Below are positions 4,031 through 10,293 of a stretch of 64,000 nucleotides of DNA, one piece after another. A program made the translations under genes and the position numbers. The DNA is taken from assembly GCA_017512725.1 (NCBI GenBank), contig JAFWEW010000022.1, positions 1 through 64,000 on the forward strand. The letters run 5' to 3'. The notes beneath the pieces were generated by a model. That model saw nothing but the letters and a program-made list of their open reading frames with translations, searched no databases and was not told where the DNA came from. The stretch's first letter is position 1. Each line of letters starts with the position of its first letter. Source of the DNA: Solobacterium sp. (GTDB lineage: Bacteria > Bacillota_I > Bacilli_A > Erysipelotrichales > Erysipelotrichaceae).

Positions 4031-4072
4031 AAAAGACCCTCCTGACTGAAGGTATCAGCGGAAGGGTCTTTT
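4031..4072. terminator. Bidirectional terminator between rarA and scrA
   Basis: AAAAGACCCT at 4031-4040 pairs with AGGGTCTTTT at 4063-4072. The A and T runs allow it to end both the rarA transcript and the convergent sucrose operon. Confidence 0.8.
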
Positions 4073-4090
4073 GTTGAATCACTGTGCTGC

Positions 4091-5935
4091 TTATGCGGCG
4101 CGCTTTACATCCTTGAATTCAGCACCGTTCGTCAGTGCGACGATAACCGTATCCGGATGATTCGCTGCGGCGATCTTGGCACGGTCGAAGGACAGCAGTT
4201 TGTCGCCTGCCTTGACTTTGTCATCCTGCTTGACGAAGGATGCAAATCCGTCACCATCCATAGCAACGGTATCCACACCGACATGGATCAGAACTTCCAT
4301 ACCGCTGTCTGATTTCAGTCCGATTGCATGGTTGGTCGGGAAGATCATCATGACCTGACCGTCAAACGGTGCATAGACAATTCCTTCACTCGGCTGAATT
4401 CCTACGGAAGGACCCATGGTCTCTTCTGCGAATACCGGATCCGGAATCTCTTTTGCCGGAATGATGGTTCCGTTGACCGGAGACTTTACAACACCGGCTT
4501 CGGTTGTAAGAGCATCAGCAGTCGGAGCACCCAGCGCATGTTCTTCCTTCTTTGCCGGAGCAGCCTTGGCGCCTGCATCTTCTTCTTTCCAGATCATGTA
4601 GGTAACGACAAATGCGATGCCGCCGGAGATTGCGAGGAGGATCGTGTAAAGCAGAGGGTTATTGATGGTGAGGTAGCCCGGAATACCGGTAACACCGTAA
4701 GCGGATGCACCGATGCCTGTGAGCGCACCGAAGATCGAACCGACTGCACCGCCGATCATACCAGCGATAAACGGCTTGAAGTAACGCATGTTGACACCGA
4801 AGATTGCCGGTTCGGTAATACCGAGAGCTGCAGACATGGAAGACGGAATCGCAATCGATTTGGTCTTCATGTTCTTAGCTTTGATACCTACCGCAAGGCA
4901 GGCACCGAACTGTGCAAAGTTTGCGGCAGAAGCGATCGGCATCCAGGTATTGAGTCCGGATTCCGCCAGCATGCCGGCTTCGATGACGTTGTACATGTGA
5001 TGAAGACCCATGACGACTGTCCATGGATAAATCGCACCCATTGCGCATGCGCCGATCGGATTGCGTACGAGGATTTTCGCACCTGCAAGAACCATTGTTT
5101 CAAGATTTGCGAAGATCGGGCCAATGATTGTGAATGTAATGTAGGAAGTCAGAAGAACTGTGGTGAGCGGTGTGATGAACAGATCGAGCATTTCCGGCAC
5201 ATGCTTGTGCAGCCATTTCTCGATCTGACACATCAGGAACACCGCCAGCATTACTGGGATAACATGTCCCTGATAACCTACCTGTTCTACCGGGAATACA
5301 AAGATGTTCCAGGTCGGAATCGCGCCTTCATAGGAAGCGACAGACCATGCATTGACAAGGCTCGGATGAATCATCAGAAGACCGATGACTGCGCCGAGGA
5401 AGATGTTTCCGCCGAATACACGTGCTGCAGAGATTGCAACAATACCAGGCAGGAATACGAATGCTGCGTTGGCAACCATGTCAAGGAAGCTGTACCAGTC
5501 GGTACCGGCAAAGCCAGGAATTGCCTTACCAAGCGCCTCGACAAGACCCATCATGAGACCGGAAGCGACGATTGCCGGCAGGATCGGTACGAAGACATCA
5601 CCAATCGGCTTCAGAAGCTTTTTCCAGAGCGGCTGTTTTTCCGCCGCAGCAGCTTTGACATCATCCTTTGTCGCAGCTGTCATGCCGGTAATATCAAGGA
5701 ATTCGTCATAAACCTTATTGACAGTACCGGTGCCGATGATGAGCTGAAGCTGTCCGTTGGATTCGAACATTCCCTTAACACCTTCGACATTGTCCAGATA
5801 GTCTTTATCAACTTTTGAATTATCCTTGATGACAAGACGCAGACGTGTTGCGCAGTGCGCAGCTTGTGCAACATTATCGCGGCCGCCGATATGGTCAACG
5901 ATTTCCTGTGCACACTTACGATAATCAAGTGCCAT
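4091..5935 (-). CDS. scrA: Sucrose-type PTS permease, EIIBCA
   Basis: Phosphotransferase permease that imports and phosphorylates a disaccharide, 614 residues. The EIIB domain has the phosphocysteine in HCATRLR (Cys28). The EIIC domain spans roughly residues 100-460 and has the GITEPAIFG loop. A C-terminal EIIA(Glc)-type domain carries the phosphohistidine motif LIHVGVDTV, so no separate EIIA is needed. The domain order and EIIB sequence are typical of the sucrose/trehalose group; sucrose is inferred from the neighbouring fructokinase and amylosucrase. It is the last gene of the operon, 35 bases after the HAD gene, with an AGGAGGG ribosome binding site 12 bases before the ATG. Trehalose or another glucoside cannot be excluded. 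Confidence 0.88.
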   Translation of the reverse strand: MALDYRKCAQEIVDHIGGRDNVAQAAHCATRLRLVIKDNSKVDKDYLDNVEGVKGMFESNGQLQLIIGTGTVNKVYDEFLDITGMTAATKDDVKAAAAEKQPLWKKLLKPIGDVFVPILPAIVASGLMMGLVEALGKAIPGFAGTDWYSFLDMVANAAFVFLPGIVAISAARVFGGNIFLGAVIGLLMIHPSLVNAWSVASYEGAIPTWNIFVFPVEQVGYQGHVIPVMLAVFLMCQIEKWLHKHVPEMLDLFITPLTTVLLTSYITFTIIGPIFANLETMVLAGAKILVRNPIGACAMGAIYPWTVVMGLHHMYNVIEAGMLAESGLNTWMPIASAANFAQFGACLAVGIKAKNMKTKSIAIPSSMSAALGITEPAIFGVNMRYFKPFIAGMIGGAVGSIFGALTGIGASAYGVTGIPGYLTINNPLLYTILLAISGGIAFVVTYMIWKEEDAGAKAAPAKKEEHALGAPTADALTTEAGVVKSPVNGTIIPAKEIPDPVFAEETMGPSVGIQPSEGIVYAPFDGQVMMIFPTNHAIGLKSDSGMEVLIHVGVDTVAMDGDGFASFVKQDDKVKAGDKLLSFDRAKIAAANHPDTVIVALTNGAEFKDVKRAA

Positions 5936-5970
5936 GTGTAGTTATTTCCCTCCTTTTCACATGTAAATGA

Positions 5971-6792
5971 TCATATGAGTCCAAGCTGTTCAAACCCCTT
6001 AAACAGCCCTTCTTCCGTTACTGATGGTACGACGAGGTCGCTGATGGCCTTCAGTGCTTCCGCACCGTTCGCCATACAGACACTTACGCCTACCGTTTCG
6101 ATCATGGTCAGATCGTTCATCGAGTCTCCAAATCCATAGACATCCTCGATCGGAACATTCAGGGTTTCCGCGATCATGCGGATGCCTTTTCCCTTATTGA
6201 ATGCCCGGTTGATCAGCTCACCGTTCTGACAGTTCCCATGAGCGCTAACTTCCTGTATGCAGAAGTCATAATCCGTTTCAAACAGTTCTCTGGCCTCCGC
6301 AAGCTGTCCCGCCTCCTGGCACATAATAACGATTTTATATGCCGGGCGTCCGTCATAGTCTTTCATCGGAAGGATATGCAGGGTTTCAGACAGTGCTTTC
6401 CGCCACCGTTCAATCTCCGAGTTGTTTCCGGATGCCTGGGAAAGGAAATCGCCGAGGTTCTCATCCCCGTAGGTTGCGTCTTTGGTTTCAACCGTACAGA
6501 AGACTCCGTTTCGGTGCAGCACCTCCAGCGCCTTCTCAAGATCTTCCTGCGGCATCGGATGATCATAGATTACCTGATCCCGGATCGTTACATATCCTCC
6601 GGCAGATGCCACCATGCCGTCAAACCCATATTCCAGCAGCGGTTTCAGCATCGCATAATTCCGGCCGGTACACAGAAATACCAGATTTCCGTTTTCCTGT
6701 GTCTTCCGGATCGCCTTCAGCGCGCTTTCCGGCGGGACATTCGATCCCGGTTCGGTCAGCGTGCCGTCGATATCAAGAAAGATGAGTTTCAT
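5971..6792 (-). CDS. HAD-superfamily (Cof-type) sugar phosphatase
   Basis: Cytoplasmic phosphatase of the HAD IIB (Cof/YbiV-like) group, 273 residues. Motif I is DIDGT near the N-terminus with the nucleophile Asp. Motif II is FLCTGRN, a C2 cap occupies the middle, and the metal-binding motif is GFGDSMNDLTM near residue 220. The start codon overlaps the stop of the amylosucrase gene (ATGA), so the two are translationally coupled. In this operon it may remove phosphate from sucrose-6-phosphate delivered by the PTS, giving free sucrose for the amylosucrase. That substrate is inference; Cof phosphatases are often promiscuous. Confidence 0.85.
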   Translation of the reverse strand: MKLIFLDIDGTLTEPGSNVPPESALKAIRKTQENGNLVFLCTGRNYAMLKPLLEYGFDGMVASAGGYVTIRDQVIYDHPMPQEDLEKALEVLHRNGVFCTVETKDATYGDENLGDFLSQASGNNSEIERWRKALSETLHILPMKDYDGRPAYKIVIMCQEAGQLAEARELFETDYDFCIQEVSAHGNCQNGELINRAFNKGKGIRMIAETLNVPIEDVYGFGDSMNDLTMIETVGVSVCMANGAEALKAISDLVVPSVTEEGLFKGFEQLGLI

Positions 6793-8705
6793 TCCTTTTT
6801 CCTCTTCTTTCCAGAGGACTTCTTTTTCTGAGGGGCAGGTTTTTCCGGTTCCCCGTCACCATAGTCGAGAAACAGCCATCGGAAATCCCAGGAATCGATC
6901 TCCACCGTTTCGGCAGAAACAGTCTTTCCGCTCATGAGATCCATGTATGTTTCTGTTTCCTTCAGTGTTACCTGCTCTTTATGTTCCGAGAAATTGAACA
7001 GCGCGAGCAGTTTCTGACCGTTGTAGTAGCGTCCGATTCCAAGCACATGATCGCTGCCGGTTTCAATCAGCCATGTATCCGCCATACCGTTGAATACATC
7101 GTACTGTTTCCGGATCTCCGTCATCTTTTTGATTGCGAGGAACAGTTTCCCCTGCGGAGAAGACGGATCGTTGCGCTTTTCCGCAAGCTTCCAGTCAAAG
7201 TCTCCGCGGTGGAGATACCGGGAATCCTCTTTCTTGAACGGATCATCATGATAGGAATAATCGTTCAGCTGGCCGATCTCATCTCCGGAATACAGCACCG
7301 GAACACCGCTTTGCGTAAACAGGAACGCATGCAGCATGATATCCAGACGGAGCGACCACTCCAGCTTGGTACTGTCCTTTTCATAAAGTGCAGCCTCAAT
7401 GCCGCAGAGGGATGCGGTCGTCCCGCACAGTCTTGCGTCACCGAGTTTTGGATCATCGTTGTAGAGTTCTCCGCGGGAATCGCTTCCAGGCCATTTGCCG
7501 GTCAGATAATCATTCAGATATTTCTTATGCGGGATCTGTTTGAGACCGTCTGACTCCAGATAGTCGTAATCAAGACCCCATCCGATATCATCATGACAGC
7601 GGAGATAATTCAGGAATGTATAATCCTTCGGCAGTGCGAACACCGTCTCAAGCTGATGGGAAAGCAGCTTGACGCTGCGGCTGGCAAGCGTATGCCAGGT
7701 ACTGGCCATCGTTGTGACATTATAGAGCATCTGGCACTCGGGCTTCTCAACAGTTCCGAAGTACGGGACGACTTTGCTTGGTTCCATAACCACTTCCCCA
7801 AGCAGGAGTGTTCCCGGGCAGACAACATCTGCCGCCATATGCATCATCCGTACAAGGTTATGAACCTGCGGCAGATTGCGGCAGGTGGTTCCAAGTTCTT
7901 TCCAGATATACGGGACTGCATCCAGCCGTATGATATCCACGCCGTTATTGCACAGAAACAGCATGTTCGCCGTCATATCATTGAAGACGGTCGGATTGGC
8001 ATAGTTCAGGTCCCACTGGTACGGATAGAAGGTGGTCATCACGATCTTTCCGGTCTCTTCATTCCAGGAGAAGTTGCCCGGAGCCGTTGTCGGGAATACC
8101 TGCGGCACCGTTTTTTCAAATTCATTCGGAATGGTCCAGTCATCGTAGAAGAAATACCGGTTCTGACATTCGATATCTCCCTGCTTTGCCTTTACCGCCC
8201 ATTCATGGTCTTCACTGGTGTGGTTCATGACAAAGTCCAGGCAGACCGAAATACCGCGTTTATGACAATCGGCTGACAGTGCCGCCAGATCTTCAATCGT
8301 ACCGAGCGAAGGCTCCACTTTGCGGAAGTCGCTGACCGCATAACCGCCGTCACTTCTTCCTTCCGGAGATTCCAGCAGCGGCATGAGATGGAGATAATTG
8401 ATGCCGCATTCCTCGATATAATCCAGATGCCTGTGCACGCCGCTGATGTTTTTCGCAAACGCATTGGCATACATTACCATGCCAAGCATCTGATTGCCTT
8501 TATACCAGTCCTTTGCAGCGATGCGCTTCTCATCCCACTTTTTCAGTGGCTTTGAACGATCCGTATAGAACTGATACAGCATGTCTGTGAAATACTCAAA
8601 CGCATGTTCGTCCTGATACAGCTCCATATAGAGCCATTTCAGTTCATCAATACATTCGTCCAGACGTTTCACAAACACCGGATCACGTTTCTTTTCTGAT
8701 CTCAT
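6789..8705 (-). CDS. Amylosucrase-like glucosyltransferase, GH13 subfamily 4
   Basis: Transfers the glucosyl unit of sucrose onto an alpha-1,4-glucan and releases fructose. The protein has 638 residues, as usual for amylosucrases and longer than sucrose phosphorylases. Family-specific stretches include WYKGNQMLGMV (about 67-77), the nucleophile in RLDAVPYIWK (Asp262), the acid/base in LLGEVVMEP (Glu304) and CHDDIGWGL (Asp372). A helical N-terminal domain precedes the barrel, and the C-terminus ends in a Lys-rich tail. It sits between fructokinase and a HAD phosphatase in a PTS operon. No GH32 sucrose-6-phosphate hydrolase is present. Whether it accepts phosphorylated sucrose or only free sucrose cannot be read from the sequence. 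Confidence 0.87.
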   Translation of the reverse strand: MRSEKKRDPVFVKRLDECIDELKWLYMELYQDEHAFEYFTDMLYQFYTDRSKPLKKWDEKRIAAKDWYKGNQMLGMVMYANAFAKNISGVHRHLDYIEECGINYLHLMPLLESPEGRSDGGYAVSDFRKVEPSLGTIEDLAALSADCHKRGISVCLDFVMNHTSEDHEWAVKAKQGDIECQNRYFFYDDWTIPNEFEKTVPQVFPTTAPGNFSWNEETGKIVMTTFYPYQWDLNYANPTVFNDMTANMLFLCNNGVDIIRLDAVPYIWKELGTTCRNLPQVHNLVRMMHMAADVVCPGTLLLGEVVMEPSKVVPYFGTVEKPECQMLYNVTTMASTWHTLASRSVKLLSHQLETVFALPKDYTFLNYLRCHDDIGWGLDYDYLESDGLKQIPHKKYLNDYLTGKWPGSDSRGELYNDDPKLGDARLCGTTASLCGIEAALYEKDSTKLEWSLRLDIMLHAFLFTQSGVPVLYSGDEIGQLNDYSYHDDPFKKEDSRYLHRGDFDWKLAEKRNDPSSPQGKLFLAIKKMTEIRKQYDVFNGMADTWLIETGSDHVLGIGRYYNGQKLLALFNFSEHKEQVTLKETETYMDLMSGKTVSAETVEIDSWDFRWLFLDYGDGEPEKPAPQKKKSSGKKRKKE

Positions 8706-8717
8706 AAGAATTGCCGG

Positions 8718-9692
8718 TTATCCTTTGAAGGAAGCGATAAACGCTTCAACAGTCGCTCTGTCCGGCATTACGCGCAGAGCTCCTTTTTTGGTTGTGACAA
8801 TGGAAGCTGCCGCATTGGCAAATGTCAGGATCCGTGTCAGTTTTTCCGCATCGAGATTATCAATTCCTTCTTCCAGGACCCCGTCGATCACACAGGCGCC
8901 GAACGTATCGCCGGCTCCGGTCGTTTCAATGGTTTCTTTCTGCAGGAACGGCTTTACTTCCACTCGGACATCTTTGTAATAAGCACGGCTCCCGTCCGGT
9001 CCCAGAGACAGACAGATCAGCTTGATATCCGGATAGTTCTTCCGGAGATATGCGATGCCTTCATCATAGTCGTCAAGACCGGTGAACCAGGTAATTTCAT
9101 TATCGGAAATCTTCAGCACATCACAGTGCTGCAGGCCCCAGTCAACTTCCCGTTTCGCATCGTCCAGACTCTTCCAGAGCGGCGGACGCAGGTTGGGATC
9201 AAACGAACGCAGCAGACCTTCCGCTTCCGCAGTCGCAACCGCCTTATGCGTTGCGCTCTTGACCGGTTCATCGGTCAGGGAGAGCGTTCCGTAATGGAAG
9301 ATTTTCGCATCTTTGATCAGATCGGTCGGAAGCTCATTCTCGTTCAGATTCATATCCGCTCCCGGATTACGGTAGAATGAAAAATCCCGGTCACCGTCTG
9401 CCAGTGTATGAACCAGCGCAAGCGTAGTGTGAACTTCATCATCGTACAGAAGCCCCTCGGCATTGATGCCTACCTCTTTGATTGCTTCGGTAAGCTGCTT
9501 GCCGAACCCGTCATTTCCGACTTTACCGATAAATGCGGTCTTTCGGCCGAGGCGGGACAGCATGGACAGTACATTGCACGGAGCACCTCCCGGATTCGCC
9601 TCAAAAACAGGATTGCCCTGTTCCGACATCCCATTCTGGGTAAAATCAATCAGGAGTTCGCCAAGTGCAGTCACATCGAACCTTTTGGACAT
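8718..9692 (-). CDS. scrK: Fructokinase, PfkB family
   Basis: ATP-dependent sugar kinase of 324 residues that would turn the fructose released by the amylosucrase into fructose-6-phosphate. PfkB signatures are NPGGAPCNV in the N-terminal third and TTGAGDTFGA with the catalytic Asp near the C-terminus. The start at 9692 is chosen because AGAGGAG lies 11 bases upstream. The open frame continues further but has no other ribosome binding site. It is the first gene of the sucrose operon, with only 12 bases before the amylosucrase start. It could act on another ketose, but the context favours fructose. Confidence 0.87.
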   Translation of the reverse strand: MSKRFDVTALGELLIDFTQNGMSEQGNPVFEANPGGAPCNVLSMLSRLGRKTAFIGKVGNDGFGKQLTEAIKEVGINAEGLLYDDEVHTTLALVHTLADGDRDFSFYRNPGADMNLNENELPTDLIKDAKIFHYGTLSLTDEPVKSATHKAVATAEAEGLLRSFDPNLRPPLWKSLDDAKREVDWGLQHCDVLKISDNEITWFTGLDDYDEGIAYLRKNYPDIKLICLSLGPDGSRAYYKDVRVEVKPFLQKETIETTGAGDTFGACVIDGVLEEGIDNLDAEKLTRILTFANAAASIVTTKKGALRVMPDRATVEAFIASFKG

Positions 9693-9723
9693 AATTATAA
9701 GTTCTCCTCTTTTGAATGGTTTC

Positions 9724-9729
9724 ATTATA
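9724..9729 (-). promoter_or_regulatory. Candidate -10 box of the sucrose operon
   Basis: TATAAT on the minus strand, about 30 bases upstream of the fructokinase start. No clear -35 box and no recognisable operator were found next to it. Confidence 0.45.
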
Positions 9730-9754
9730 TAGGAAATTACCATCCAAATATATG

Positions 9755-9787
9755 AAAAAACAGATAATGACTCATGGTCACTATCTG
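9755..9787 (-). terminator. Terminator of the aromatic operon
   Basis: CAGATA (9761-9766) pairs with TATCTG (9782-9787) and TGAC (968-71 of 9700) pairs with GTCA (9777-9780). On the minus strand the stem is followed by six T. The stop codon of the Gx gene lies inside the stem. Confidence 0.75.
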
Positions 9788-10293
9788 CGTTTTTCGGTAA
9801 GAGGACGAATATGTTTCAGAACCAGATTCGCGGTTACGCCGATCGCAATACCGGTCGGTATGGAGCCCAGCAGAAGGTATGGAAGGATCGCCGTCATGCC
9901 GATCTGTTTATAGATAAAGGATACGATCAGCACCTGTCCAAGCGAATGTGCGATGGATCCGCATATGGAAGTAAACAGGACCGAGGCACCTGCCAAATCC
10001 AGCAGAACCATAACGGTACTGGAAAGCAGCACGCCGCCGGAACTGATCCAGAAAGTACTTCCGAAGATTGTACCTCTCAGAAGATTGCCAATCACGACAC
10101 GCATGACATTGACAATGACCATTTCTGTCCGGCTCATCAGCTTCAGTGCAAGCAATGCCGCGATATTGGCAAGGCCAAGACGCAGCACGCCGAAGATCGG
10201 CCCGATGTAAATCGACTCCAGCAGATTCAGAGCGATTGCCACCGCCGACAGCATCGCCAGGTAAGTGAACCGTCTGTTTCGCTCAATTCCCAT
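9781..10293 (-). CDS. Gx transporter family membrane protein
   Basis: Integral membrane protein of 170 residues with about five hydrophobic segments. It resembles the Gx/ECF-S-like family often annotated as heptaprenyl diphosphate synthase component I; the Gly-rich core GNLLRGTIFG and the GSIPTGIAIG segment near the end fit. Its substrate is unknown. It overlaps the upstream NusG-II gene by 11 bases, so the two are made together, and it is the last gene of the aromatic amino acid transcript. In other Bacillota this pair often stands near redox or isoprenoid genes, so its place behind aroQ may be only transcriptional. Confidence 0.75.
   Translation of the reverse strand: MGIERNRRFTYLAMLSAVAIALNLLESIYIGPIFGVLRLGLANIAALLALKLMSRTEMVIVNVMRVVIGNLLRGTIFGSTFWISSGGVLLSSTVMVLLDLAGASVLFTSICGSIAHSLGQVLIVSFIYKQIGMTAILPYLLLGSIPTGIAIGVTANLVLKHIRPLTEKRR

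Follow-up and report, generated by a model that had tools for sequence, protein, structure and literature searches.

A PTS-linked operon with an amylosucrase-type enzyme and a HAD phosphatase in place of sucrose-6-phosphate hydrolase: a candidate glucan-storing sucrose route in gut Bacillota

A sucrose PTS delivers sucrose with a phosphate on the glucose unit, and the textbook metabolism of this product runs via GH32, whereas amylosucrase polymerises glucose from free sucrose; a dedicated phosphatase would bridge these two otherwise incompatible steps. The Cof-type HAD family is notorious for unknown substrates. For maltose, a route with a maltose 6'-phosphate phosphatase, MapP, is described in Enterococcus faecalis (Mokhtari et al. 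2013, according to PMC3737437), and for the cluster FAEPRAA2165_02761-02769 of Faecalibacterium prausnitzii the recombinant amylosucrase was found to degrade sucrose (PMC8894670). A description of the combination of PTS, phosphatase, and amylosucrase was not found in the open-licence PMC literature.

The window (the whole stretch of 64,000 nucleotides that was analysed) carries on its minus strand a self-contained operon (4036-9730) with, in the order of transcription, genes for a PfkB fructokinase, an amylosucrase-type GH13 enzyme, a Cof-type HAD phosphatase, and a sucrose-type EIIBCA, followed by a terminator (Table 1). All four genes lie at the positions and on the strand given in an earlier note on this DNA, and the coupling claimed there agrees with the short gaps (12 bp between the fructokinase and GH13 genes, 35 bp between the HAD and EIIBCA genes), the ATGA overlap of the GH13 and HAD genes, and the hairpins bounding both ends. 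The fructokinase start at 9692, likewise taken from the note, is preceded by the Shine-Dalgarno sequence AGAGGAG (9710-9704), the mechanically derived open reading frame beginning at 9743. The TATAAT motif has no good -35 element and is absent from the output of a consensus promoter scan. The best NCBIfam model of the first gene product is the fructokinase NF006957 (191 bits, under the cut-off of 450). According to the comparison of gene order, the identical gene set occurs in dozens of genomes with varying flanking genes, a recurrence which is far beyond chance.

Table 1. Features of the operon and its boundaries (positions in the window).
Feature	Position	Strand	Basis
PfkB-family fructokinase, first gene	8718..9692	-	PF00294; NF006957; Shine-Dalgarno
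GH13 amylosucrase-type enzyme (GH13_4 by similarity)	6789..8705	-	PF00128; PDB matches; conserved active site
Cof-type HAD-IIB phosphatase, proposed sucrose-6-phosphate phosphatase	5971..6792	-	PF08282, TIGR00099
Sucrose-type PTS EIIBCA, one chain	4091..5935	-	PF00367, PF02378, PF00358; TIGR01996
Terminator-like hairpin and T run, 3' of EIIBCA	4036..4053	-	sequence
Terminator-like hairpin and T run, between heptaprenyl diphosphate synthase-like upstream gene and operon	9760..9788	-	sequence
TATAAT, possible -10 of operon promoter, weak	9724..9729	-	read from sequence

Concerning the PTS, EIIB, EIIC, and EIIA form a single chain, for which the best curated model is that of sucrose IIBC (TIGR01996; 526 bits, the cut-off of 559 not being reached), followed by the beta-glucoside (518 bits, cut-off 615) and trehalose (397 bits, cut-off 592) models. 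EIIBCA proteins of the same subfamily (66-69% identical) are found in four relatives (G016, G031, G004, G027) in the arrangement LacI-GH32-EIIBCA, without an adjoining HAD ortholog and without amylosucrase, such that beside the same EIIBCA subfamily the GH32 gene is exchanged in the recurring set for the HAD and GH13 genes, which occupy its place in the operon. The GH32 proteins of G016 and G004 score 420 and 425 bits, above the scrB_fam cut-off of 356. Since close EIIBCA relatives paired with ScrB also remain under the TIGR01996 cut-off (505 bits), this threshold seems too strict for the clade. The GH32 partners in the relatives tie the subfamily to sucrose, which is thus probably the sugar taken up, as the earlier note had supposed.

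The earlier note had named a sucrose-induced GH32 gene elsewhere in the genome, or a PTS for some sugar other than sucrose, as evidence against its reading; at the level of sequence neither check refuted it. No GH32 gene was found in the operon or in its own genome (97% complete). The only match of a genome-wide PF00251 search is partial (25.8 bits) and belongs to a 419-aa lipoprotein-like ORF, which gives no sign of a hidden GH32 gene. The nearest carriers of the operon (G010, G022, G028) show no GH32 beyond partial matches of at most 26 bits, and many carriers outside the nearest clade also possess GH32. Sucrose phosphorylase gave no match at E <= 1e-25 in the own genome. A full glycogen pathway is present there (pgm-glgB-glgP-pullulanase plus glgC-glgD-glgA), including the glycogen phosphorylase gene glgP. 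In G007, the operon is situated directly 3' of glgC-glgD-glgA, and at three other loci (L097, L098, L126) a glucan phosphorylase is encoded near the GH13 gene.

The GH13 protein has 638 aa and ends in a Lys-rich tail. Its 18 best sequence matches in the PDB are amylosucrases or a related sucrose hydrolase, led by the amylosucrases 7esh, 9isa/3ucq, and NpAS 1g5a (residues 11-611 aligned, E 1e-145). The catalytic residues D262, E304, and D372 are conserved, and the -1 subsite (D119, Y122, H162, F226, R260, D262, E304, H371, D372, R496) does not vary among the 98 aligned GH13 sequences. D119 and R496, invariant in this alignment, are the equivalents of D144 and R509, the pair by which the amylosucrase pocket is shaped; H162 corresponds to H187, at O6 of the glucose in the -1 pocket. 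The glucose-binding subsite is the same in PTS-fed and ABC-fed enzymes and agrees with known amylosucrases, and among the 98 sequences no alignment position separates the PTS- and HAD-linked from the ABC-linked enzymes. The acceptor side differs from NpAS (Y227/P228 versus N251/S252, N416/D418 versus Q437/N439), which leaves the product type uncertain. By homology and active site, the protein appears to be of the amylosucrase type, and synthesis of alpha-1,4-glucan is a plausible prediction.

The HAD protein is a Cof-type HAD-IIB member (TIGR00099, 146 bits, above the cut-off of 137), in which D7, D9, K200, D223, and D227 (motifs DIDGT and GDSMND) are invariant among 21 homologs. Of the two SPP models, PF05116 aligns with no more than residues 195-246 (29.7 bits, cut-off 20.3), and TIGR01482 yields 65 bits at a cut-off of 107, which points to a shared HAD-IIB motif more than to membership in the SPP family. 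Among 294 genomes of the order, an ortholog is present in 31 of the 34 with this GH13 type (at least 63% identity) versus 3 of the remaining 260, and as these three, without the GH13 type, possess HAD-EIIBCA or FK-HAD-EIIBCA arrangements (FK, fructokinase), the HAD gene tracks the PTS. In a set of 97 GH13 loci, 37 of the 42 PTS-linked GH13 copies have an ortholog nearby, as against 5 of the 55 PTS-unlinked copies (28 of 31 versus 1 of 31 where 3 kb of flank is available on each side); Fisher p-values for such counts are raw, ignore relatedness, and serve for description only, and the phylogenetically independent pairs on supported branches, only three in number, point in the expected direction without being significant. 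ABC-fed relatives are nearly always without HAD, e.g., G224, whose GH13 protein is 65% identical, and the operons L194-L196 with the gene order SBP-permease-permease-FK-GH13 (GH13 about 40% identical), which are similar to the F. prausnitzii cluster. There are exceptions to the pattern: at least two PTS-fed genomes, G055 and G030, have FK-GH13-EIIBCA, and no HAD ortholog was found anywhere in them, which may be explained by their GH32 genes elsewhere; L067 and L119 have a PTS and no HAD nearby, and in L120 the HAD gene adjoins an ABC transporter. Overall, the distribution supports the HAD protein as a dedicated partner of the PTS, presumably acting on the PTS product.

In G245, G255, and G260 (HAD-EIIBCA, no GH13_4), a GH13_18 gene was noticed whose nearest structure is 6s9u, a putative sucrose phosphorylase; it was set aside as supporting evidence, its genomic context being unrelated. 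Concerning distribution, the operon set is kept in many related gut bacteria, the host being itself a gut-type bacterium, and the route genes were also observed on Spirochaetota-labelled MAG contigs. Cultured carriers include Clostridium vitabionis YH-T4B42 (L055) and the Lachnospiraceae isolate from which L060 derives.

From these genes we infer a route with sucrose as substrate and glucan as chief product. During import, EIIBCA would phosphorylate sucrose on its glucose unit, giving sucrose-6-phosphate, from which the HAD phosphatase would regenerate free sucrose within the cell. Free sucrose would serve the amylosucrase as glucosyl donor for the extension of an alpha-glucan, and the fructose set free would be phosphorylated by the fructokinase. 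Glycogen phosphorylase and phosphoglucomutase would feed the glucan back into glycolysis. The phosphatase would forfeit the phosphate drawn from PEP, but phosphorolysis would make up for this by taking in free phosphate. The route could therefore be as economical as the classical pathway, and the glucose half would meanwhile be stored as glucan. The steps via free sucrose, the first of two readings in the earlier note, gain support from the exchange of partners, from the phyletic co-occurrence, and from the conserved active site; the storage of glucose as alpha-glucan, also claimed there, is plausible from the glg context and less well supported against simple hydrolysis. A glucan-storing operon for sucrose use, consisting of PTS, phosphatase, amylosucrase, and fructokinase, is the probable interpretation. 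With somewhat less assurance, though still on the favourable side, we regard this as a widespread route of gut Bacillota, in which a dedicated HAD enzyme frees PTS-made sucrose-6-phosphate and amylosucrase stores a glycogen-like glucan without ADP-glucose, wholly replacing sucrose-6-phosphate hydrolase.

Simple hydrolysis is an unlikely alternative, yet the least unlikely of those considered: the GH13 enzyme would mainly hydrolyse free sucrose (or form isomers or short oligosaccharides), and glucokinase would phosphorylate the glucose, without glucan storage. It would fit the unusual acceptor side, the name sucrose hydrolase in the PDB for the related Xanthomonas enzyme 3cze, and the own glgC-glgD-glgA, which makes glycogen without need of an amylosucrase, whereas the invariant D119 and R496, the glg genes immediately before the operon in G007, and the phosphorylase genes at the three further loci argue for glucan; moreover, dephosphorylation, hydrolysis, and rephosphorylation of glucose would lose one ATP compared with GH32.

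The second reading of the earlier note, that the GH13 enzyme acts on sucrose-6-phosphate itself, would release fructose along with either glucose-6-phosphate or a 6-phosphoglucosyl product, and would leave the HAD protein as a detoxifying sugar phosphatase. The one-for-one exchange with GH32 and the HAD-less GH13-EIIBCA combinations (the four exceptions with a PTS above) speak for it, but the C6 phosphate would have to fit a closed -1 pocket that, H162 included, has the same residues as in the ABC-fed enzymes, and a search for residues distinguishing PTS-linked from ABC-linked enzymes was fruitless. Furthermore, a general detoxifier would explain neither the HAD orthologs remaining with EIIBCA where GH13 is missing nor their absence from the examined EIIBCA-GH32 loci, and we consider direct action improbable. 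Still more remote is the import of another glucoside (e.g., trehalose or a beta-glucoside), sucrose being suggested by the GH13 type only by chance: EIIBCA does score under the sucrose cut-off and almost equally on the beta-glucoside IIABC model, but its subfamily is partnered by ScrB-type GH32 in four relatives, the own trehalose PTS is a separate gene (35% identical) adjoining a phosphotrehalase-like GH13 gene, and fructokinase and amylosucrase each indicate sucrose.

If the route via free sucrose is true, the HAD protein would be the first known enzyme to dephosphorylate sucrose that carries its phosphate on C6 of the glucose unit, which offers a testable function for a clade of Cof-type HAD proteins. 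By extension from this operon, many bacteria of the gut and rumen are predicted to turn dietary sucrose directly into storage glucan; absence of GH32 would then not equal inability to use sucrose, and such amylosucrases, commonly annotated as extracellular, would have their annotation corrected.

Compared with the classical scr operon (ScrA PTS, ScrB GH32, ScrK fructokinase), a sucrose-type EII and a fructokinase are common to both, whereas GH32 is replaced here by HAD phosphatase and amylosucrase. The amylosucrases of Neisseria polysaccharea (1g5a) and Deinococcus (3ucq) are homologous over almost the whole chain, with an identical -1 subsite and different acceptor-side residues; we know of no PTS or HAD partner for them. 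In the ABC-fed clusters (F. prausnitzii FAEPRAA2165_02761-02769, L194-L196), amylosucrase and fructokinase are adjacent and serve imported sucrose as here, but sucrose enters unphosphorylated and HAD is missing. The spsA-sppA-frkA-amsA operon of Synechococcus PCC7002 also leads to glucan from sucrose, as proposed here, whereas its phosphatase belongs to sucrose synthesis, with sucrose-6F-phosphate of internal origin as substrate, and no PTS is involved (PMC11046441). The HAD protein of the present operon is Cof-type and probably not SPP. In the MapP route of E. faecalis, a PTS-phosphorylated disaccharide is freed by a phosphatase encoded beside the EII, as proposed here. An enzyme for the free sugar reportedly follows the phosphatase there. 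It differs in the sugar (maltose), in the phosphatase (endonuclease/exonuclease/phosphatase family, not HAD), and in the use of maltose phosphorylase instead of amylosucrase. Here, too, the phosphatase gene is co-conserved with the PTS, and its activity on the PTS product is predicted; the operon would thus be the second case of PTS plus phosphatase after MapP, a route that appears to resemble the maltose one, with unrelated enzymes from different protein families.

The operon described in the earlier note is confirmed: family searches matched its genes to a PfkB fructokinase (FK), an amylosucrase-type GH13 enzyme, a Cof-type phosphatase (HAD) and a sucrose-type PTS transporter (EIIBCA), in agreement with the note, with junctions of 12 bp, an overlap (ATGA) and 35 bp. 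Since terminator-like hairpins lie on both sides, it constitutes a separate unit; its neighbours are the next gene on one side and, on the other, a gene resembling heptaprenyl diphosphate synthase, past which lie genes for aromatic amino acids. Elsewhere in the window, FeoA and FeoB domains are fused into a single 839-aa protein.

Positions of features in the window
Feature	Position	Strand
Terminator-like hairpin before the operon	9788-9760	
Operon FK, GH13, HAD, EIIBCA, in that order	9692-4091	minus
C-terminal tail of GH13	6789-6854	
Terminator-like hairpin after the operon	4053-4036	
FeoA-FeoB fusion protein	229-2748	

The note's first reading, that HAD would free sucrose from sucrose-6-phosphate, amylosucrase build glucan and FK recover fructose, gains support from independent comparative arguments based on sequence. 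In a set of 97 GH13 loci, drawn from many Bacillota genomes plus a small number of other genomes, HAD is situated near GH13 in 37 of the 42 PTS-linked but only 5 of the 55 unlinked copies (28/31 versus 1/31 for loci with at least 3 kb on both flanks). Contig ends interrupt four of the five loci with HAD but without PTS; the fifth, L120 (ABC and HAD), is a genuine exception, apart from which the ABC-fed relatives lack HAD. As HAD accompanies PTS-linked copies and is mostly missing from ABC-fed loci, the phosphatase tracks phosphorylated import, not amylosucrase as such. Some ABC-fed loci adjoin alpha-galactosidase GH36 genes, which would release sucrose from raffinose. Of 98 loci, 19 (among them L047, L048, L055, L083, L122) have a PTS Enzyme I gene (ptsI) adjoining their amylosucrase genes.

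Across 294 genomes of the order, HAD orthologs (at least 58% identity) and operon-type GH13 (at least 63%) are each found in 34, 31 being common to both. The three HAD-only genomes possess HAD-EIIBCA without GH13 (L186 in G245, L187 in G255) or FK-HAD-EIIBCA (L188 in G260); neither amylosucrase nor GH32 was found in these genomes, and a GH13_18 phosphorylase-like gene is sited elsewhere in them. Concerning the GH13-only genomes, G224 exhibits an ABC-type context and a GH32 gene; G055 (L043) and G030 (L046) carry FK-GH13-EIIBCA with HAD missing, and no HAD ortholog was found elsewhere in either genome.

If GH13 acted directly on sucrose-6-phosphate, the alternative, the phosphate at glucose C6 would need room in the same closed pocket. 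The residues that hold the glucosyl unit in Neisseria amylosucrase (D144, Y147, H187, F250, R284, D286, E328, H392, D393, R509) are all present in the window GH13 and do not vary across the aligned copies, whether PTS-linked, ABC-linked or otherwise; between PTS+HAD and ABC-linked GH13, the alignment showed no position with disjoint residues. The simplest reading is that GH13 would use free sucrose in every context. A recombinant amylosucrase of Faecalibacterium, whose cluster is ABC-fed, breaks down sucrose (PMC8894670). Lys-rich or Lys/Ala/Glu-rich C-terminal tails are common among the amylosucrases compared (e.g., L038, L039, L040, L041, L088), comprising 22 residues in the window GH13 (DGEPEKPAPQKKKSSGKKRKKE) and as many as around 160, with histone-H1-like repeats, in relatives; glucan, membranes or nucleic acids are candidate binding partners of these tails.

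Concerning the sugar imported, the curated sucrose model gives EIIBCA its top score without the cut-off being reached. Homologues 66-69% identical to it occur in LacI-GH32-EIIBCA operons (L170-L173) of relatives without the amylosucrase operon; both GH32 proteins tested from these exceed the sucrose-6-phosphate hydrolase cut-off, and their tested EIIBCA partner likewise stays below the sucrose-model cut-off. Judged from such data, genomic context settles the question of a sucrose PTS better than the model score. This single PTS subfamily thus occurs with either of two partner sets, one being GH32 and the other HAD+GH13. The trehalose-type PTS of the own genome is a distinct gene (35% identical).

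The genome-wide GH32 check proposed earlier, a PF00251 profile search of the whole own genome (2.72 Mb, 97% complete), found no sucrose-6-phosphate hydrolase (ScrB); the sole match is partial (25.8 bits), in a 419-aa lipoprotein-like ORF (L001, G000:C13:125609-125893). As weak matches of this kind turn up in numerous relatives, this ORF is a separate conserved secreted protein. Sucrose phosphorylase gave no match there at E <= 1e-25. No real GH32 was found in the nearest operon carriers (G010, G022, G028); most other relatives possess one or several. In G028, a 3,020-base contig (C114, L050) carries parts of FK and GH13 that match the window at 100% protein identity, in addition to the copy belonging to G028 itself (80% identical), such that this MAG is probably mixed.

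The fate favoured for glucose would be glucan synthesis, since pgm-glgB-glgP-pullulanase and glgC-glgD-glgA are present in the own genome, in G007 glgC-glgD-glgA directly precedes the FK-GH13-HAD-EIIBCA operon, and a glucan phosphorylase is near GH13 in three further loci. The acceptor-side residues of GH13 deviate from those of classical amylosucrases, such that hydrolysis of sucrose, or short products instead of glucan, is possible.

No report of the present combination of PTS, phosphatase and amylosucrase was found in the open-licence PMC literature, and the operon is of interest to microbial carbohydrate physiology. In the maltose route of MapP (maltose 6'-phosphate phosphatase), an enzyme for the free sugar reportedly follows the phosphatase. 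This route exhibits the same logic, PTS then phosphatase (PMC3737437), whereas the sugar differs and the enzymes are unrelated. The cyanobacterial sps-spp-frk-ams operon has a similar parts list, but its phosphatase serves a purpose opposite to that proposed for HAD (PMC11046441).
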